Source: Candidatus Saccharimonadota bacterium (GTDB taxonomy: Bacteria; Patescibacteriota; Saccharimonadia; Saccharimonadales; Saccharimonadaceae). From it: DNA of 42,718 bases. Both the position numbers and the translations under genes were made by a program. The stretch is from NCBI GenBank assembly GCA_009787015.1, contig WRGU01000049.1, forward strand, positions 1 to 42,718, in the 5' to 3' direction. Under the pieces are notes generated by a model. It had not been told where the DNA came from and did not search any database. It saw only the letters and a list, made by a program, of their open reading frames with translations. This document shows, piece after piece, positions 547 through 40,481 of the stretch (position 1 is the stretch's first letter; each line of letters starts with the position of its first letter).

Positions 547-679
547 GGTGCAACAGATACGGAGCATTAACATTATGTTGACATTTTTAATATCCTTATA
601 AAAAAATGTTGCGTTAAAATAAAACTTGTAGTATAATCGTAGCAACGTGGGAAAACTTTAAGTAACATAGGAGATAATT

Positions 680-1726
680 ATGACTGAGACCCAGAGCGAA
701 AAACATCGATTCGAAACCGTCACGGAGAAGATTTTAATATCAATCGACCGACCGCGCGAAAAAGAAATCATCGAACGACGTTTTGGCATTAACGGACATA
801 AAGAAACTCTGGAATCAGTCGGCGAAACTATGGGCATCACTCGCGAACGGGTGCGCCAAATCGAAAAAGCCACCTTACTGCGCATGCGGCTCGGACTCGA
901 TAACGGCAAAAATCCGGAATTCGACGCCGTTGAAATGGAACTCGTCAAAGTCCTGCACGAACTCGGGCGCGCCGCGAGAACCGAAACTTTGGCAAACGAA
1001 ATTTTCGGCAACCGCACGCAACGATCGCGTGGCATTATCACCCTGATCGCGGAACTGTCGGAAAAAACCGTCGCCACCACCGAAAATGATCAGTATTTCC
1101 CATCGGTAGTTTTGACCACCGAGCTGAGCGAAAAGGACATCAAGAAAAACGTCGACATCGTCGTGAATACCATCAAGGACCACGGCGAACCCGTCACTGC
1201 TGACGAATTATTGGCATTGGTTGGCGGCAAATACGAACATCCGTCCGAAGTTACTGCCATCGCCAGCATCAGCAAGCACGTCTTCAACCTCGACAATAAA
1301 TGGGGTCTGGGCAAATGGCCGACCGTCAATCCGCGCAACATTCGCGACAAAATCTACATCGTCCTGTCCCACAACAACCAAAAACCGATGCATTTTTCCG
1401 ACATCGCCGCCGGTGTTAAATCACGCGATTTCAAACGCAACAACATCACCGACCAAGCGGTTCACAACGAATTGATCAAGGACGATCGTTTCGTGCTCGT
1501 CGGTCGCGGCATTTACGCGCTGTCCGAATGGGGCTATGAAAAAGGTTCGATCATCGACGTCATCAGAAAAGTTTTGGAAAAGGAAAGTCCGCTCCATCGC
1601 GACGAAATCGTCCGCCGCGTCCTCAAAGTCCGCCAAGTCCGCGAAGCCACCATTCTCCTCAACCTCCAATCAAAAACCGACTTCAAACGCATCAATAAGG
1701 GCGAATACACGTTGGTGAAAAAATAG
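680..1726 (+). CDS. Sigma-70 region 4-like / HARE-HTH domain protein
   Basis: N-terminal ESVGETMGITRERVRQIEKATLLRMR resembles sigma region 4.2; later winged-helix HARE-like stretch (HFSDIAAGV...); RBS-like aggag upstream of ATG. Confidence 0.75.
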   Translation: MTETQSEKHRFETVTEKILISIDRPREKEIIERRFGINGHKETLESVGETMGITRERVRQIEKATLLRMRLGLDNGKNPEFDAVEMELVKVLHELGRAARTETLANEIFGNRTQRSRGIITLIAELSEKTVATTENDQYFPSVVLTTELSEKDIKKNVDIVVNTIKDHGEPVTADELLALVGGKYEHPSEVTAIASISKHVFNLDNKWGLGKWPTVNPRNIRDKIYIVLSHNNQKPMHFSDIAAGVKSRDFKRNNITDQAVHNELIKDDRFVLVGRGIYALSEWGYEKGSIIDVIRKVLEKESPLHRDEIVRRVLKVRQVREATILLNLQSKTDFKRINKGEYTLVKK

Positions 1727-8650: not shown

Positions 8651-10000
8651 TTATGCTCCTTCTTCTTCACGCTCATTATACATATTCATACGTGCTTCTT
8701 CGAGTTCTCCAAATTCAGACATCACCTGCTGTAAATCAATTCTGTCAGCAGGGAGCCGCGACTTATAAAAATCCGCAAATCGAGCCAATCCCGCCATCGT
8801 AATCTCATACTGTTCCGGTGTGACTGATTTTTTGTATTCACTTTTAGCCTTTTCATATTCATAATGTTCGTGTCTTCTGTGCTGTATTTCTTCGTGCCAT
8901 TCTTCGGTCATTACATCGGGTATCCTCAACGCTGCATTTAATTTCTGCAAAGTTTCTATTCCGCTACCCTCGAGACCTTGGTATTCCACCACCTCGCTAC
9001 CATCGGCACCATAGGGTTGGGATCTACAAATTTTACAGACCAGTTTTGCAAGAATATTTTTAACAATAGTAGGTGTCCCATCCCATTTGTCAACTGACGG
9101 TGTATTTTCGTATATAGTGGTGGTGATGCTACGATCATGCTCGTTATGATAGGAATCGAAGCGATGACCGCCCTTTACCGCATCCTCTAACATATTCATT
9201 CCAATGTCGCACGTGCGTGCATTTTTGTCGTAGTATTTACATTCACGGCATAAAGGTTCAAAAACACAATATGATAGTTCGTGTCGACGAAATCTACTAT
9301 GTTTCTCCTCGTTCGTCACATACCAGCCCAAACTCCTGTACGATTTTTTCAACCGAAGTCCATCTGCTAATATCTCTGGATCAGGCGGGTCCTTATCAAT
9401 TTCAAATTCATCGTTATCTTCCTCGCCCTCGTCCTCTTCGCGTGTCAAAAAAGTATATGGTACTAGTTCCGGATCCGAATGATAAGGAAGTTCGGGGCAC
9501 CACAGTCCCTTCTCTGTCGAGAATCTTTTATATTCTTCCTCTACCGCTAGCGCTTCCTCGACCCTGATATTATGTATATCGGATCCTGGCGTTTTCCATA
9601 ATCGGTCGAGGTCTTCTTTGGCTTCCATTGAACTACCTTTGATGCCATGATACACCTCTACATGATCGTCCGGATCAACCGAAGCATAAGAAGTACACCC
9701 CAACGCAGCAAGTGAATGTTCTGCGATATAATAACCATCTTCCGTGGGCGTGCCCTTTGGGAGTATCGCGGTATAAATACGTTCATCTCCGTCCTCATCT
9801 TCAAAATCATCGCTTATAAAATCATGTCCGCCATCGGTTGCTGTTCTGAGCATATATTTTCCCAATGCACATCCACCAATTTTAATATGAAATTTACATC
9901 CCGAACAAATTTCTTCGCTGCTATAATACGAAGGTTTATTTAATGGTTTTTTGTCGCTGCACTTGCCATCTGCTGTAAAATATCCACTTTCTGCTAACAT
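8651..10000 (-). CDS. Uncharacterised Cys-rich protein with two CCCH modules (paralog of 10007..11629)
   Basis: CSGCKFHIKIGGCALGKYMLRTATDGGH and CRECKYYDKNARTCDIGMNMLEDAVKGGH; only 6 bp from the upstream paralog. Confidence 0.75.
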   Translation of the reverse strand: MLAESGYFTADGKCSDKKPLNKPSYYSSEEICSGCKFHIKIGGCALGKYMLRTATDGGHDFISDDFEDEDGDERIYTAILPKGTPTEDGYYIAEHSLAALGCTSYASVDPDDHVEVYHGIKGSSMEAKEDLDRLWKTPGSDIHNIRVEEALAVEEEYKRFSTEKGLWCPELPYHSDPELVPYTFLTREEDEGEEDNDEFEIDKDPPDPEILADGLRLKKSYRSLGWYVTNEEKHSRFRRHELSYCVFEPLCRECKYYDKNARTCDIGMNMLEDAVKGGHRFDSYHNEHDRSITTTIYENTPSVDKWDGTPTIVKNILAKLVCKICRSQPYGADGSEVVEYQGLEGSGIETLQKLNAALRIPDVMTEEWHEEIQHRRHEHYEYEKAKSEYKKSVTPEQYEITMAGLARFADFYKSRLPADRIDLQQVMSEFGELEEARMNMYNEREEEGA

Positions 10001-10006
10001 AAGGTG

Positions 10007-11629
10007 TTAAACTCCTTCTTCTGGCAAAACCTTAAACTGGCACTCTTCTTCTTCGCCATCAATCCGCGGTGCGAAATAAGCCAGGAGTTGATCTCGCTCT
10101 CTCCTATCTATATCTCCGTATATCATGCTGGCGGTGGCGCAACTATCTACGCCATCTCCTCCTCGATAGCGCGCACAGCCCTCGCAGACTTTCGGCTTGT
10201 TAGGATCTTCCGTTGTTTTCTCGTTTCCTCCGTTGCTGAGTTTTTTCTGCAATTCTGCGCGTTTTGCGATAATTTTTTCCTTCCAATCAGGATCATCTTT
10301 CAAGGTTTGGAGGTAATCCATCAATACTTGTCCCATCTGGGTCAATGTTATTTGCTCTTCTCCTGTGTCTTCCTCTCCCTTATCTTCCTCGCCTTCTTCA
10401 CCGAGTGCCGCCAGTTCCTCAGCCAACATGTTCGTTAGTCTTTCCGCAGATTCGATCGCGCGTGTCACTCTCAAACTCGCTTCGTCCAACTGCGCGTTAT
10501 GCCACTCTTTGCTCATCACGTCCGGTATGCGCCAAGCAGCGTTCAGTTTTTGCAAAGTTTCCACGCCGCTGCCGTCGGGACCTCGATATTCTTTGACATA
10601 ACTGCCGTCGGCGCCGTCGGGTCGCGAATCACACCGATATCCGCATGCCAACCTCGAGAGGACTTTTTTGTCGCCCCATTTGTCAACCGGCGCTTCGTTG
10701 TCATATACAGTGGCATAAATCATGCTATCCTCAAACTCTCGACCCTTATCAAAACCGCTGTTAATTTCATGATCGCCCTCAGCCGCGTCCTCGAGCATCA
10801 TTCTGCCAATCTCGCATGCGTGTTCAGGTTTATTATAATACTTACACCCGTCGCACATGTACTTATCGACATAATACGACAGTACGCGTCGGCGAAAATG
10901 ACTGCGCGCCCCGTCCGTGCCAACATACCAACCGCCGTCCGAATACGAATCCCTGAACCGCCACTCTTCCTTTAGTATCTCCGGATCAGGCTTATCTTTG
11001 TCTATCTCAAATCCTTCGTCGTCCAACATACCCTCGTCCTCGTCGCGCGTGAAAAAATGCCACGGCACTAGTTCTGATTCTGACGTAGCGGGCGACCAAC
11101 CAAATCCGTTTTCTTCGCTCCACTCCCTGTGTTTTTCCGCGCACGCCAACGCTTCCTCGACCCTGATATCATGCAGTGCCGATCCGGGCGTTTTCCACGC
11201 TCGATCGAGGTCTTCTTTGGTTTTCATTGAGCTACCCTCAAAACCCATAAAGTGCACATTTTTGTCAGTGAGACTGCCTGGCGTGTAGTTTAGGGCGCGT
11301 TTACATTTCAACAAGGCGATACAATTTTCCACGCTCGGATTCTCGAAAAAAGTACCTTGCTTTAGTATCATCGTAAGAATCTCCCCGTCCCTGTAACCGC
11401 CGACATCGTCACACAGCGAACCATTGTCATCAAAATAATCGCTAAAAAGAGTGCGATGCTCGTCGTGCACCGTTCTGAGCATATATTTTCCAAGCGCGCA
11501 CCCGCCGATCCGCAGGTGATATTGGCAACCGAAACAATGCCGCTCCTCGCTGCAATACGACGCCTCGTTTTTCGGTCGTTCGTCGCTACATTTTCCGTCC
11601 AGCGTGAAATATCCACTTTCTGTCAACAT
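10007..11629 (-). CDS. Uncharacterised Cys-rich protein with two CCCH modules and extra C-terminal Cys domain
   Basis: CFGCQYHLRIGGCALGKYMLRTVHDEH and CDGCKYYNKPEHACEIGRMMLEDAAEGDH; start MLTESGYF aligned to paralog. Confidence 0.75.
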   Translation of the reverse strand: MLTESGYFTLDGKCSDERPKNEASYCSEERHCFGCQYHLRIGGCALGKYMLRTVHDEHRTLFSDYFDDNGSLCDDVGGYRDGEILTMILKQGTFFENPSVENCIALLKCKRALNYTPGSLTDKNVHFMGFEGSSMKTKEDLDRAWKTPGSALHDIRVEEALACAEKHREWSEENGFGWSPATSESELVPWHFFTRDEDEGMLDDEGFEIDKDKPDPEILKEEWRFRDSYSDGGWYVGTDGARSHFRRRVLSYYVDKYMCDGCKYYNKPEHACEIGRMMLEDAAEGDHEINSGFDKGREFEDSMIYATVYDNEAPVDKWGDKKVLSRLACGYRCDSRPDGADGSYVKEYRGPDGSGVETLQKLNAAWRIPDVMSKEWHNAQLDEASLRVTRAIESAERLTNMLAEELAALGEEGEEDKGEEDTGEEQITLTQMGQVLMDYLQTLKDDPDWKEKIIAKRAELQKKLSNGGNEKTTEDPNKPKVCEGCARYRGGDGVDSCATASMIYGDIDRRERDQLLAYFAPRIDGEEEECQFKVLPEEGV

Positions 11630-11638
11630 AATGATCCT

Positions 11639-11668
11639 ATAATACACCCCCCCCCATTAATTTGTCAA
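11639..11668 (-). promoter_or_regulatory. Promoter with G9 tract in the spacer
   Basis: Minus strand TTGACA-18 bp (contains GGGGGGGGG)-TATTAT, upstream of ATG at 11629. Confidence 0.65.
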
Positions 11669-11746
11669 GCATAAGCATTTATTTTATAATAAATTTTGAC
11701 CTGGAGACAGGGAAGTGGTACAATATTCGTGCCAAAGGAGGGCAAA

Positions 11747-12124
11747 ATGGGTAAAACTTTACAGATCGATATCAGCGGGATACATTACGACATTGACGAA
11801 AAAACCGAAAGTTACGCCAAAAAGAAAGTGGCGAAGTTGGTCGATTACATTCCGCGCCAGGCTCGCCCAAGTGCGTTTGCCAACATTAAAATCACACAGG
11901 TTAATCAAAAAAACAACAATAAATATGAATGTGAAATCGTACTAACGTTGCCGGAAAAGGTTTTGGTCGCGAAAGATTACGCGCCAAACGCCTTGGCGGC
12001 GATTGATGTCGTCGAATCGAAATTGCGCGGTCAAATTCGCCGTTACAAAACCGAACGCCGCGCCGACGGTGTCCGCACCGGCGGTATCATCGCGAAACTG
12101 AAAAAATCATTGCGTCGAAAATAG
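11747..12124 (+). CDS. hpf: Ribosome hibernation promoting factor / RaiA family
   Basis: MGKTLQIDISGIHYDIDEKTESYAKKKVAKL, typical length and beta-alpha pattern; RBS aaaggaggg. Confidence 0.82.
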   Translation: MGKTLQIDISGIHYDIDEKTESYAKKKVAKLVDYIPRQARPSAFANIKITQVNQKNNNKYECEIVLTLPEKVLVAKDYAPNALAAIDVVESKLRGQIRRYKTERRADGVRTGGIIAKLKKSLRRK

Positions 12125-12160
12125 TTTCTGCGGGAAGACTGTCTTTGCAGCAAAAGCGGG

Positions 12161-13738
12161 TTAGATTTTTTGCCGCATGATTACGGATAGGGCGTCTTTA
12201 GTTGTGCCGAATTTTACGCCAGAGTTTAAAACATTAAACGGATCGAAGATTTTTTTGACGTCGCTAAATAATTCCGCCATTTTGCCATTGTATTGGTCGA
12301 CGGCGAACGGAGCGTTCAGACGACCTTCGCCGATTTCGCCGGCGATCGAACCGTCCAAATCCAACACTGCGTCACGCAACTCGTTCATGAAACGAAACAC
12401 TGTTTGGCGCTGACCGAGATTTTCCAGGTTAATTAACGGTCGAACTGTGATTATTCCTGAACCCAAATTACCCCAGATCCCACCCTCGATATGATTGCGA
12501 TTCATGATTTCTTTGACGCGCGGGATAAATTCCGGAATACGTTTCGGATTGACGTAAATACTGTCCGCGAGCGGCAATGCCGCCGTACCGCGTTCGGTGA
12601 AATTTGTGATTTCGCGCACAATATCGTAAACCGAACGGATTTTTTCCTGATCCTCCCAAGTTTCGGCGGTTTTAACTTTCGCGGTCACCAACATTTTCGT
12701 CAGTTTCTTCATGCGTTTGGCGCGATGTTTGTCATCAAATTCGACCACCAACATTTTGTCGGGAACCGTATCAAACAACCGTTTCCAACTATTATTCGCG
12801 GTTTTTTTCTGGATCAGTTTTAATGTTTCGCCATCAATAAACCTAAATTCCGACGGTTCGAGTTCCAAAATTTGCGCCGTCAACGCGTTCAGATCCGTTT
12901 CAGTGGTCGTACCAATCGCGAGCAGCGATGAATCCTCGGGCGCGGGCAATAGTTTGAGAATCGCCTGCGTGATGATACCCAGTGTGCCTTGCGATCCGGC
13001 AAATAGCGGCGTCAGATCGAACGCACCTTTGTCGTCCTTAACCAAATGAAGCGGAAAACCGACGGCGTTCGGAATATTTTTTTGCGCAAAATCGCTAACT
13101 AAATCCGCATTGTTGTCGATGAGCGCGTCAAGCGCGCGATAAATCTCGCCCTCCATACTCTGCAAACCCTTTTTGCGATTGAGTTCGCGTTTATTCAACC
13201 GACCGGTGTGAATCACTTCGCCATTCGCGAGAACCACGTCCAAACAATCCACGGATTCTAATATCGGACCATATTTGATCGATTTCGTACCTGAAACATT
13301 GTGTGCGATTATGCCGCCGATGGTCGCCGTTGGATTATTGGGCTGAACTGGCAAAAACAATCCGTATGCCGCCATGACTTCCTGTAGGGTCGAATACCCG
13401 ATCCCGGATTGCACGCACACCATTTGTGATTTCGCATCAAATTTCAAAATGCGCGACATATGTTCCGGAAATGACAGAATCGCGCCTGCGCCAATCGCAC
13501 CGCCAGTCGTATCGCCGCCGAAACCACGCGCCGTAATCGGCAATCTCTGCCCGCGTTCCGCGAGCCGCCACACGAAACGTGCGACCTTTTTAATGTCGTT
13601 AATCGTTCGCGGATAAATAACTAAATCGGGAGTAATTCGAAAAATGCTCCCGTCCGTCGAAAACTTTTCGCGCACCAATGCGCTGGTTGTTACCTCGCCG
13701 TCCAACCTCTCCCCCAAATAGTCCGTGATCTTACTCAT
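12161..13738 (-). CDS. FAD-binding (PCMH-type) oxidoreductase, GlcD/D-lactate dehydrogenase-like
   Basis: ITARGFGGDTTGGAIGAGAILSF, NPTATIGGIIAHNVSG, AGSQGTLGIITQAILKL. Confidence 0.82.
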   Translation of the reverse strand: MSKITDYLGERLDGEVTTSALVREKFSTDGSIFRITPDLVIYPRTINDIKKVARFVWRLAERGQRLPITARGFGGDTTGGAIGAGAILSFPEHMSRILKFDAKSQMVCVQSGIGYSTLQEVMAAYGLFLPVQPNNPTATIGGIIAHNVSGTKSIKYGPILESVDCLDVVLANGEVIHTGRLNKRELNRKKGLQSMEGEIYRALDALIDNNADLVSDFAQKNIPNAVGFPLHLVKDDKGAFDLTPLFAGSQGTLGIITQAILKLLPAPEDSSLLAIGTTTETDLNALTAQILELEPSEFRFIDGETLKLIQKKTANNSWKRLFDTVPDKMLVVEFDDKHRAKRMKKLTKMLVTAKVKTAETWEDQEKIRSVYDIVREITNFTERGTAALPLADSIYVNPKRIPEFIPRVKEIMNRNHIEGGIWGNLGSGIITVRPLINLENLGQRQTVFRFMNELRDAVLDLDGSIAGEIGEGRLNAPFAVDQYNGKMAELFSDVKKIFDPFNVLNSGVKFGTTKDALSVIMRQKI

Positions 13739-13773
13739 AATACTAATATTTTAACACAACTTGTTTGCGATTT

Positions 13774-14151
13774 CTACTGTTCGTTTTGAAAAGATTCCAA
13801 CCTAAAACCACCCTCGATTCGACTTTCGAATGATTGCACTTTGCTTCCGTCGGCTTGCACTTCGCCGCCGCAATCGAGGGAAGTACTGGTTTCCAATCCG
13901 CCTTCAACGATATGGGCGTAAGTTTTATTTTTCGAAAGAGCATGACCGCCGTCAAACAATCGACAATGCGGGTTTTCATCCGTATATTTAAGCATAGCTA
14001 ATTTTAGTGCGCATTCACCAGTTTCCTGGTTATAATGCTTGCACTTGCCGCATATTTCGGGATCAGTATAATACGACTTTTCACCCTCTTGTTCGCTAAA
14101 ACTGTAATACGGTGCGAACTCGCTGCTTTTTCCGTCCTTTGTCACATACAT
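13774..14151 (-). CDS. Uncharacterised single-module CCCH protein
   Basis: CGKCKHYNQETGECALKLAMLKYTDENPH plus conserved downstream ADGSKVQSF...GG segment; RBS aaggag. Confidence 0.72.
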   Translation of the reverse strand: MYVTKDGKSSEFAPYYSFSEQEGEKSYYTDPEICGKCKHYNQETGECALKLAMLKYTDENPHCRLFDGGHALSKNKTYAHIVEGGLETSTSLDCGGEVQADGSKVQSFESRIEGGFRLESFQNEQ

Positions 14152-14210: not shown

Positions 14211-14238
14211 ATTATAGCACCCCCCCCCAGAAAGTCAA
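14211..14238 (-). promoter_or_regulatory. Promoter with G9 tract in the spacer
   Basis: Minus strand TTGACT-16 bp (contains GGGGGGGGG)-TATAAT upstream of ATG 14151. Confidence 0.75.
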
Positions 14239-14269
14239 CAGCGAAATAATATGTGTTAAAATATTCGTT

Positions 14270-31876: not shown

Positions 31877-34318
31877 ATGGAATTCAATACGACGAATAAC
31901 AGCCAAATACGCACCAGTCTCCTGCAAAGGATAGCCGACATACGGGCTGTTACCACAGAGATAAAACCGAATATAGAGCATATTGATGCTTGTCGGAAAA
32001 TGCCGTTTAAGATAGGAAATATTTTTACTTCTGCAGCGTCTATCTTTGGTGATAAGGATATACTGCTTGATTGTCTCGATAGCGCCATGATGCTTTACAC
32101 TAATGATCACTCGGAAATTACTGATGAACATAGAGAAAAGTATAAGCTAGATGTCGTTAGCAAGCTATTGCGTTCCACCAGGACAGAATGCGAGGATGGC
32201 AGTATAATCGAGAGACGTGCCGATACAAAAGAGGCGTTGAGGCGATTTTATGATTCCGCTCGCTTGTCGACCGAAGTGTCTAATGAAACGTATCTGGCGG
32301 CTATCACCGAGGGTCAGTTTGATGATCTGTCACAGGATCAACTCGTCGATCTGCATTTTCTTCTTGAACGCCTCCGATCGCTCAATGTCGCGATTAGGGG
32401 AGCACGGCTCGCAAGCGATATGTATTTTTTGTCCAAAAAAGCCGGTCGTCTCGCTTCGAATTGGATGAAGAGCGAACTAGGGCAGGGTATTTTCAGCGGT
32501 GTCGCGTCCATCGAACAGGCGGCTGTCGATGATTTAATCGCACGCACTACGTACATGTGCCGAGTCGAAGACGACGAGCTACTCAAGGGTCTGTTCGCGG
32601 TTTTTTCAGTCGATGGGGATGATCTCTTGGGTGACACTATAACCGATTTCACCGCCGCCAGCGCCCACGTTCGATCGCTCATGACCCCCGAAACAATCGA
32701 GACCGAAGAAGTCGACTCTATCGCTGGAGAAATGTATCAGGATTTTCTGGACAAATTACCCTTTAGGGTCGGCGAACCGTTTATTGATGCCAGTGAAGCC
32801 CTCGATTTAAGGGAGTCGGTTGGTCGAAGATTGTATGGTTCGGTCATGTCAGTCCATCAAGGCAAAATGATCGACTTGGACGACGAAGAACGCGATTTTC
32901 GCCGTCATTCCGGTGCCGCCAGCCGCATCATAGAGGGTGTATCCCTCCTCGAAAGGTACCCGCATCCACCGCTGACCGGCGGGGAAGAAAAGGTGCGATA
33001 CGACAATTTCGACGACATTCTCACTGGCATCGTCAGAGAAGCTACTACGCAAGATGATCCAGACGCGTTCCTCGAATCACAGGGCAAAACTATTCATGAC
33101 TTTGCGGTCGTTTATTCGACCGTCGAAGCCGCTATGACCGCGAGTGCGATAGCTGCCGCTTCGACGAAAGGCGCACGTTACGCCAAAAACTGGTTGGAGA
33201 GCGTAAAAGGTCGCGGGGTTTTCAGCGGTATAGCCGAACAACACGCCGCCAGTATCGAGGATTTGAGGAAAAAAGCAGGGAACGCGTTAAAAGACGAGAA
33301 GAATCCCGACGCCAGAATGATTCTCGAAACAGTTATCACAGATTTGGATGCTTTTTCGTCGGATCTTGCCGGTTTTTGTAAAGTCAGTCGCGAGATTTCA
33401 AAACTCCTGGACGAAAAACACGCCGCGGAAGCCGCGGAGAGAGAAACAGCCAATCCGATTCCGGTCAATCCGGTTGCGGATCCGATTCCAACTGAACCCG
33501 AACTGATCGAAATTCCGACTGAACCCGGGGATTTAGTACCCAACCCCCCCCCAGCGTCCGATGAATCCACTGAAAATCCACCGGTCATGGAGGTTGAGGA
33601 AAGTGGTGAAACTGCTGACGATAGAGAAGTCCTTATCCCCGAAGGTTTTGAGGAGATTGAAATCGCTCGTCATTATTCCGAACGAGGCGCTACTGAGGTC
33701 GAGACGACGGCACTCTTGGCGCGTCTCGCTAGCGAGGCTACTGGGGTGATTCTGCCTGAGGGTGCTCGTTCTGAACCAGATAGCGAAAAGCCAGTGACGA
33801 TTAAAAGACCGCGAACAGCGAATGATGTTATTTTGGACGATCGCGAGGAATGGCTCGCGAAGCGAAAAACCACCGCCAATTTGGCGTGGAATAAGGGTTG
33901 GCAGACCCTCGCTGACCTCGCCGCGTTGATTGTTGATGAATCGGATGGAAGACTTTATAAATCCCGACTCGGCGATGAATCTCATCCCATACAATCATTT
34001 CGTGGTCAAGACAAGAGAAAACAACAGCGCAAACACCCCTATTACGCATTCGAATTTCCCGCTGGTTTTGATGGGGAATATACCGCGGTTATCGCCGAAT
34101 GCGCCGAACCAAATAACGCTACGTACATTTGGGTAGGCAAAACTGCTCTGAAAGAAACTTGGCAATCACTCTTTGAATTATCAAAACGAGAAGCTAAAGA
34201 GGGCGGCGTTCGAGCGATCAATCACCGCAACGACAAAGTTCCGCATTGGGAACGCGCCATGAACGAAGTCGACCGCCAGGTTGAAGAGCTCGATCGGGCG
34301 ATTTTAGAGGAAGAATAA
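31877..34318 (+). CDS. Large uncharacterised helical protein with internal duplication and Pro-rich linker
   Basis: Long ORF with TTGACT-17-TACAAT promoter; repeated GxRxAxNW...GxGxFSGxA unit; C9 tract in linker. Confidence 0.7.
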   Translation: MEFNTTNNSQIRTSLLQRIADIRAVTTEIKPNIEHIDACRKMPFKIGNIFTSAASIFGDKDILLDCLDSAMMLYTNDHSEITDEHREKYKLDVVSKLLRSTRTECEDGSIIERRADTKEALRRFYDSARLSTEVSNETYLAAITEGQFDDLSQDQLVDLHFLLERLRSLNVAIRGARLASDMYFLSKKAGRLASNWMKSELGQGIFSGVASIEQAAVDDLIARTTYMCRVEDDELLKGLFAVFSVDGDDLLGDTITDFTAASAHVRSLMTPETIETEEVDSIAGEMYQDFLDKLPFRVGEPFIDASEALDLRESVGRRLYGSVMSVHQGKMIDLDDEERDFRRHSGAASRIIEGVSLLERYPHPPLTGGEEKVRYDNFDDILTGIVREATTQDDPDAFLESQGKTIHDFAVVYSTVEAAMTASAIAAASTKGARYAKNWLESVKGRGVFSGIAEQHAASIEDLRKKAGNALKDEKNPDARMILETVITDLDAFSSDLAGFCKVSREISKLLDEKHAAEAAERETANPIPVNPVADPIPTEPELIEIPTEPGDLVPNPPPASDESTENPPVMEVEESGETADDREVLIPEGFEEIEIARHYSERGATEVETTALLARLASEATGVILPEGARSEPDSEKPVTIKRPRTANDVILDDREEWLAKRKTTANLAWNKGWQTLADLAALIVDESDGRLYKSRLGDESHPIQSFRGQDKRKQQRKHPYYAFEFPAGFDGEYTAVIAECAEPNNATYIWVGKTALKETWQSLFELSKREAKEGGVRAINHRNDKVPHWERAMNEVDRQVEELDRAILEEE

Positions 34319-37445: not shown

Positions 37446-38210
37446 ATGTCAGAAAAATTACAGTACGGTAGGGAACACTGCACGCTCACGAGAGTGCGCA
37501 AGGGGCAAGAGGCGCGGGATGCCGGCGTTGTTGCCATAACCGCCGCTACGCGCGCCGCTGTTGTCGAAATGTTGGGGGTGCAACGAGAGGAGGCCCTGGC
37601 GCACAATCGCGACGTTATCACGTCCGATCCGACGGATTACATCGATACGGAATTGGCGAAAGTCCAGAATCGTCAAAAAACTCTGTACGAACATGGTATT
37701 ATTTTGCCGAATCCTGGTATTTTTTATAACTTCAACGAAGCCGACCTATCGATTAGTGCGCTGATAGACGTAATACAGAGGCAAAACTTGTTGTATGACA
37801 GAGAGGAAATGTTCGGTTTCGTCAATAATCTGGCGCGGCGACAAAATAGCATGCCGACCGGTGGCACGCTGTTGATAGATAAAATTCCCAGCGTATATCA
37901 AATCAAAACGCAACCTGATATGGCGGCGCGAATCGGCATTATGGGTCGAAAAATCACCGCCGCAACGAATGATTTTACCGCCATGCAACTCGGTGTCGTC
38001 CCCAGTTTGCACGTGTACAACCAACAATACAATTCTTTCCCCCACGTAACGCGCAATCACGGCGTTTTCACGCCCGACATCACCGCCGATGGCAACGTCG
38101 CATGCGTCGGCGATTGGCATTCCAGCGGTCGAGTGCATCTCTGCGCCTTTCACGAAAATTCCGCTATTTCGCGAACCGGCGCGCATATCGCGGTGGTGGA
38201 AAAATCTTAA
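37446..38210 (+). CDS. Hypothetical protein
   Basis: 254-aa ORF with promoter/RBS region upstream. Confidence 0.6.
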   Translation: MSEKLQYGREHCTLTRVRKGQEARDAGVVAITAATRAAVVEMLGVQREEALAHNRDVITSDPTDYIDTELAKVQNRQKTLYEHGIILPNPGIFYNFNEADLSISALIDVIQRQNLLYDREEMFGFVNNLARRQNSMPTGGTLLIDKIPSVYQIKTQPDMAARIGIMGRKITAATNDFTAMQLGVVPSLHVYNQQYNSFPHVTRNHGVFTPDITADGNVACVGDWHSSGRVHLCAFHENSAISRTGAHIAVVEKS

Positions 38211-39438: not shown

Positions 39439-39849
39439 TTATTCCCATTGATCAATTCTTTTGTCAACAACGACCTTGCCGGCCGCAAAATCCTGGATAA
39501 ACCATTCTTCGTGCAACGCCGGCATAGCTTCGTCTAGGATAACTTCCAAACCATCTGCTATAGAATCAGCTTTGCCTATAACCGCAGAATCTGTCTGCCC
39601 TAGCTCTAATCTGACGTCATCATTTTCTATAATAGCACTTATCGCGTTGTCTAAAAGAGCATGACAAATGGCGCGATGTCCGCACCCTTCGCATAACAAC
39701 CTTGCCCTATCTTCGTCCAATGGGTCATATTCGGTATTTTGCAGCGGGCAATCTTGATAGCGAACGGATTTATTGTAATGATCATTACCGCAATCATAAC
39801 TTTCGGCGTTTAATCCGATTACTCTGCGTGGTGAATTATCTATACTCAT
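39439..39849 (-). CDS. Small Cys-rich hypothetical protein
   Basis: CEGCGHRAICHALL cluster; promoter TTGACA-17-TATAAT and RBS. Confidence 0.6.
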   Translation of the reverse strand: MSIDNSPRRVIGLNAESYDCGNDHYNKSVRYQDCPLQNTEYDPLDEDRARLLCEGCGHRAICHALLDNAISAIIENDDVRLELGQTDSAVIGKADSIADGLEVILDEAMPALHEEWFIQDFAAGKVVVDKRIDQWE

Positions 39850-39971
39850 AAAAATATCTCCTTCTCTTACCATTATATCACACTTATGCTCCCGTGTCAA
39901 GTGTTTTTTTGTCAATTTTGACAAATTAGGGTATTTATGTCTTATTTTTTGTCAAAAACAGCAACTGATCA

Positions 39972-40286
39972 TCATTTCTCTGGCTGTTCTTCTTCGGGCG
40001 GCACATTCGCACCTGCCATGTGATAGCACATCAAATCGGAATCTTTCATATCCACCACCTCTCGGGGCAACCAACCGCGTTTTTTGGGAAACTTTAGAAT
40101 AGTGGCATCAACAGCCGCCCCCCGAAACTCCTCTCTCGTACCCAGAGCAGCCGAAGCCATAGCGAATTTACAGCCTATTTCACCAAACCTCGTAATATTT
40201 CTGGATTGACATCCTTCCATTCTGTCGCACCTAACATCGAACCGTCCAACACCTTTTGCGTTGATATATCGTTCTCCTGCTGCCAT
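39972..40286 (-). CDS. Small Cys-rich hypothetical protein
   Basis: RCDRMEGCQSRNITRFGEIGCKFAMASAALG; RBS aaaggagcg; TTGACA-17-TATACT upstream. Confidence 0.6.
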   Translation of the reverse strand: MAAGERYINAKGVGRFDVRCDRMEGCQSRNITRFGEIGCKFAMASAALGTREEFRGAAVDATILKFPKKRGWLPREVVDMKDSDLMCYHMAGANVPPEEEQPEK

Positions 40287-40481
40287 AACTCGCTCCTTTA
40301 CCTTAATTATATGATTAAGTATATCACATATCAGATAGCGTGTCAAGATTTTGCGAAAAACTATTGCGTTTCGTGTAAAGTTTTGCTAAAATATCCCGTG
40401 AGTTTCAAAGTTTTTCAGAGTGCTGTCTGATGAACTATGTTTGTGGTGTTACCGACCACTGATAATTTAAGAAGGAGTAAA

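Follow-up and report, generated by a model that had tools for sequence, protein, structure and literature searches.

Which domain is repeated in the minus-strand proteins P0001, P0002, and P0003, and how are the genes that carry it positioned and expressed? Within the window, i.e., the whole stretch of DNA analyzed (42.7 kb), the first-pass annotation had placed five copies of an unrecognized CCCH module in these three proteins. The three open reading frames, all on the minus strand, and the five peptides were indeed found there (Table 1).

Extent and homology of the module

The homologous unit spans approximately 135–140 amino acids and is thus wider than the CCCH stretch. Hidden Markov models (profile of about 140 residues) were built with one or more copies left out and were searched against six-frame translations of the window and of other stretches of the source genome. 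The model derived from the other four copies recovered the copy in P0003 at an E value of 1.4e-7. A model of P0003 plus the two N-terminal copies detected the C-terminal copies at 8.5e-13 and 3.9e-10, and a model of P0003 plus the C-terminal copies detected the N-terminal copies at 2.7e-12 and 4.8e-7. Over all five copies, the values ranged from 4.8e-7 to 8.5e-13 with most of the profile covered. Judged by these profiles, the five copies are homologous beyond chance. A second conserved block (ADGS), also described in the first-pass annotation, was clear in three copies but had diverged in both N-terminal ones. A possible sixth module at residues 482–530 of P0002 (CxxC-x11-C...C) looked alike by eye and was rejected at a domain i-E value of about 330.

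Table 1. Positions of the module proteins, modules, insertions, and promoters within the window.
Feature	Position	Strand	Description
P0001	8651..10000	-	449 aa, pI 4.8 (acidic), two modules, operon gene 2
P0002	10007..11629	-	540 aa, pI 4.7 (acidic), two modules, operon gene 1
P0003	13774..14151	-	125 aa, one module
P0001 C-terminal module	8912..9328	-	leave-out HMM
P0001 N-terminal module	9584..9988	-	leave-out HMM
P0002 C-terminal module	10517..10933	-	leave-out HMM
P0002 N-terminal module	11183..11617	-	leave-out HMM
Insertion with P0002-P0001	8553..11740		between serS and hpf
Insertion with P0003	13739..14269		between FAD-linked oxidase gene and rsmD
P0002-P0001 promoter	11639..11668	-	TTGACA, 18-nt spacer, TATTAT; G9 at 11647-11655; 11/12 consensus
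P0003 promoter	14211..14238	-	TTGACT-N16-TATAAT; G9 at 14220-14228; 11/12 consensus

P0002 and P0001 are 48% identical overall, and only 6 nt separate the end of P0002 from the start of P0001, which is preceded by the Shine-Dalgarno-like sequence AAGAAGGAG. Between the two genes, 76–78% of the synonymous sites differ, which amounts to saturation, compared to 31–35% of the nonsynonymous sites. As synonymous differences far exceed nonsynonymous ones, both are real genes under purifying selection, and by this measure of divergence they are old tandem paralogues. By inspection, none of the three acidic proteins has a signal peptide, in which they differ from about half of the genes found behind G-tract promoters (see below). 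They are apparently cytosolic, and lacking signal peptides they are unlikely to act directly at the surface.

No supported match to Pfam or NCBIfam was obtained with either the proteins or the modules, in line with the first-pass annotation, which recognized no known family in the module. For the module proteins, PHROGs and PADLOC yielded no supported family (two PHROGs matches at E values of 0.03 and 0.12 were unsupported), and the PDB held no credible match. The sole PDB match of low E value, the designed WD40 propeller Tako8, was discarded, as it arose from summed repeats of 5–10 bits each with per-domain i-E values of at least 9. Likewise, Foldseek with a weak model of P0003 gave no match at E <0.5. 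A comparison with Pfam/InterPro and proteomes of the candidate phyla radiation (CPR) had been proposed as a check; there was no Pfam match, and the same-phylum genomes sampled were devoid of a relative. In numbers, the module profile found no relative in 247 genomes of the same family, 348 of the same order, and 341 of the same phylum, with the genus being covered by one further genome that is 70% complete. Weak profile matches in six genomes (G001, G009, G013, G015, G191, and G262) turned out, when read in frame, to be UvrD-like, penicillin-binding-protein-like, or short chance open reading frames. Phage and plasmid records contained no module match, nor did GTDB and viral contigs when searched with back-translated patterns from alignments of the paralogue pair. 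The module is therefore a domain that is new by sequence and restricted to the source genome as far as sampled. Such an orphan family is of interest, yet with no homologues it offers little to work with, and we consider the promoters of its genes to matter more.

Conserved cysteines and the candidate metal site

Under all five MAFFT settings, the three cysteines, an M-L pair, and a downstream L-x-C were, among other positions, invariant in the five copies, which represent one genome and about three independent lineages. The spacing C-x2-C-x8/9-C is kept in every copy. The cysteine of the L-x-C, overlooked in the first-pass annotation, is the fourth invariant one and corresponds to C94 in P0003, C102 and C322 in P0001, and C109 and C329 in P0002. 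In contrast, the histidine was invariant under none of the five settings; in the N-terminal copy of P0002 it comes one residue earlier, so that the five histidines never line up. Of the proposed CCCH signature, the three cysteines thus hold, while the histidine is not positionally conserved and the downstream cysteine is. A loss of conserved cysteine or histidine had been named in advance as evidence against a module of this kind; in the five copies compared, conservation applies to the cysteines and not to the histidine.

The four conserved cysteines expected of a C4 metal-binding domain are present in all five copies, whereas the combination expected of a C3H zinc site, three cysteines and one histidine at conserved positions, was not found. 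As the fourth cysteine is conserved and the histidine is not, C4 is the likelier ligand set on the basis of the alignments. A true C3H site, in which the three cysteines and the nearby histidine bind zinc and the downstream cysteine is structural or incidental, appears unlikely. If an indel of one residue is allowed, a histidine does occur 14–15 residues past the third cysteine in all five copies, but the downstream cysteine occupies one column under every setting while the histidine never does. Furthermore, in the P0003 model residues 48–59 form a helix that would set the histidine far from the third cysteine. This model is of low confidence: AlphaFold, provided with two to five input sequences, reached a mean pLDDT of 49 for the small protein and of 31 for the large protein, too low for a metal site to be read from the models.

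A second alternative is that the cysteines do not make up a structural zinc site but hold an Fe-S cluster or serve as a thiol-based redox switch. Four invariant cysteines would suit such a role, and a gene for an FAD-linked oxidase adjoins P0003 on the same strand. However, this oxidase is kept in all 26 genomes searched, none of which has the module, and separate start signals seem to serve the gene both in the source genome and in G001, the further genome of the genus. A partnership is unlikely since the oxidase is a core gene with apparent start signals of its own and the module is not part of the core; P0003 was accordingly rejected as a partner of the oxidase, and we regard an Fe-S or redox function of the module as rather improbable.

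We infer metal binding by a C4 site, with zinc as a candidate. The domain would probably fold around a metal ion held by the C-x2-C-x8/9-C motif and the downstream L-x-C, with a knuckle followed by a helix and then strands. It resembles small C4 zinc-knuckle or treble-clef-like domains in having a C-x2-C, a third cysteine that opens a predicted helix, and a later cysteine. It differs from these domains in that no credible Pfam, NCBIfam, or PDB match exists and in that the third and fourth cysteines are set far apart, at a distance that varies from 46 residues in P0003 to 56–64 in the other copies.

Two further orphans of the window contain cysteines. A 161-aa protein at 39439-39924 (-) displays C...C-x2-C-x5-C, by eye a WhiB-like cluster spacing, with no match to the Pfam WhiB family. 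Adjoining it at 39972-40346 (-) is a 124-aa protein with five cysteines that is unrelated to the modules by HMM.

Genomic position and promoters of the module operons

In the same-genus genome G001 and in three others (G003, G005, and G006), serS and hpf are directly adjacent. In the source genome, this pair is split by the P0002-P0001 operon, which lies on the opposite strand. Similarly, rsmD and the gene for the FAD-linked oxidase are divergent neighbors in G001 with about 60 bp between them. From this comparison of gene order, both module operons are inserted into core gene pairs, and the genes of the three module proteins are accessory ones gained via insertion into core loci. The P0003 segment is surrounded by imperfect inverted repeats of 25 nt (13742-13766 and 14244-14268). 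As they overlap the start regions of both neighboring genes, they may just be two similar promoters.

Each operon is preceded by a sigma70-type promoter, and these two are the best matches of the region. The P0003 promoter has an extended -10 element, TGCTATAAT, with TG ahead of the -10 hexamer. Upstream of P0002, the ATG at 11629 follows the -10 element so closely that the transcript is probably leaderless. In both promoters, a run of nine G residues lies between the -35 and -10 elements, and both spacers (16 nt for P0003 and 18 nt for P0002) are a small tract change away from the optimum.

G tracts in promoters and proposed phase variation

The window contains three G/C runs of at least eight bases, and two of them are those in the spacers of the module operons. 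In 163 kb of the source genome, runs of 6, 7, 8, and 9 bases occurred 9, 2, 1, and 12 times, compared to expected counts of 21, 4.7, 0.95, and 0.25. The stretches of the source genome that were examined harbor about 50 distinct runs of at least eight, mostly of exactly nine bases; some sit at contig ends, and one is 26 bases long. The contig ends L024, L037, and L043 carry the same gene sequence with G11 and G9, representing paralogues or strain variants. The third run of the window is a C9 (33544-33552) located in frame within an 813-aa orphan open reading frame (31877-34318, plus strand) that has a leaderless-type promoter just upstream; slippage at this run would truncate the protein. A pair of orphan paralogues, at 37446-38210 (+) of the window and 600-1343 (-) of stretch L067, shares 29% identity (E value of 5e-16), and the L067 copy is located behind a G tract.

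Relatives were searched with the pattern TTGAC-N3-10-G8-N1-8-TANNAT, using the reversed pattern as a control. In 31 of the 247 family genomes the pattern occurred at about 80 sites, compared to a single site for the control. Ten of the 341 phylum genomes were positive, among them two of this family (the source genome itself and G010), and the control gave none. The spacers of 77 such promoters peaked at 15–16 and 18–19 nt; only five measured 17 nt, as did none of the 30 with a perfect TATAAT. Ordinary TTGAC/TANNAT sites of the source genome, on the other hand, peak at 17 nt (16 of 37). As spacers with G tracts avoid 17 nt, their assembled state is usually one or two bases off the apparent optimum. 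We read this as G-tract loci being stored mostly in a weak state, although selection against strong G-tract promoters would look alike. That G9 runs are sequencing artefacts or neutral mutational products with no regulatory meaning is highly improbable: assembly artefacts are plausible at the contig ends, including the 26-base run, but the tracts are bordered by unique sequence on either side, they share a single orientation within promoters, they recur in many genomes with about 80-fold enrichment over the reversed pattern and a spacer deficit at 17 nt, and the run at 33544-33552 holds an 813-aa frame open.

In the source genome, the genes behind G-tract promoters encode RCC1-repeat proteins whose N-termini are hydrophobic, membrane proteins, one protein with PQQ-like repeats, and cytosolic proteins specific to the lineage. 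In relatives, they encode many proteins with N-terminal hydrophobic segments and three type IV pilins, which carry the N-methylation motif. The pilin genes belong to three genomes from a single genus of the family and start at most 6–7 nt past the promoters.

Replication slippage by one G would shift the spacer of P0003 from 16 to 17 nt and that of P0002 from 18 to 17 nt, or away from it, 17 nt being the spacer favored by promoters of the source genome. Cells of one population would then differ, as slippage moves the spacer to or from this length. Expression of the module operons is thus probably phase-variable, which we infer from promoter architecture. The operons would share a contingency gene set with the RCC1-repeat surface proteins encoded in the source genome and with the type IV pilins that relatives possess, and this set would most likely tune the interaction with a host cell or phage. 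Our main reading, at a probability of about 0.6, combines a lineage-restricted metal-binding domain, accessory genes inserted into core loci, phase-variable G9 promoters, and a role toward host or phage. We give even odds to the broader proposal that a small-genome family, probably Saccharibacteria judging by the genome size and gene content of the source genome, has a genome-wide poly-G phase-variable set with spacers 1–2 bases off 17 nt, by which epibiont cells differ toward their host. The set would cover surface proteins and type IV pilins as well as cytosolic proteins specific to the lineage, those with the cysteine domain among them.

Literature text searches, in which subscription papers are thinly covered, did not turn up any account of Saccharibacteria that undergo phase variation. 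Type IV pili have an effect on host binding in one cultured Saccharibacterium (PMC12206443). If the promoters switch, ultrasmall bacteria with reduced genomes would keep a large phase-variable set that includes pilins, the proteins that mediate host binding in this cultured relative, and cell-to-cell differences in host attachment would be explained.

The closest known counterpart is porA of N. meningitidis, where a poly-G run in the -35/-10 spacer, as in the module operons, allows changes of one nucleotide to alter transcription (PMC3899988). In contrast to porA, dozens of tracts occur here in one genome of 0.86 Mb and recur across a small-genome family, the two operons encode apparently cytosolic proteins, and switching is predicted from sequence. 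Repeat-based variation in a CPR bacterium has a parallel in Gracilibacterium BD1-5, for which slipped-strand mispairing was discussed for a hypervariable repeat gene (PMC6851277); there, however, the repeat is coding and confined to one gene, whereas here homopolymers lie in promoter spacers.
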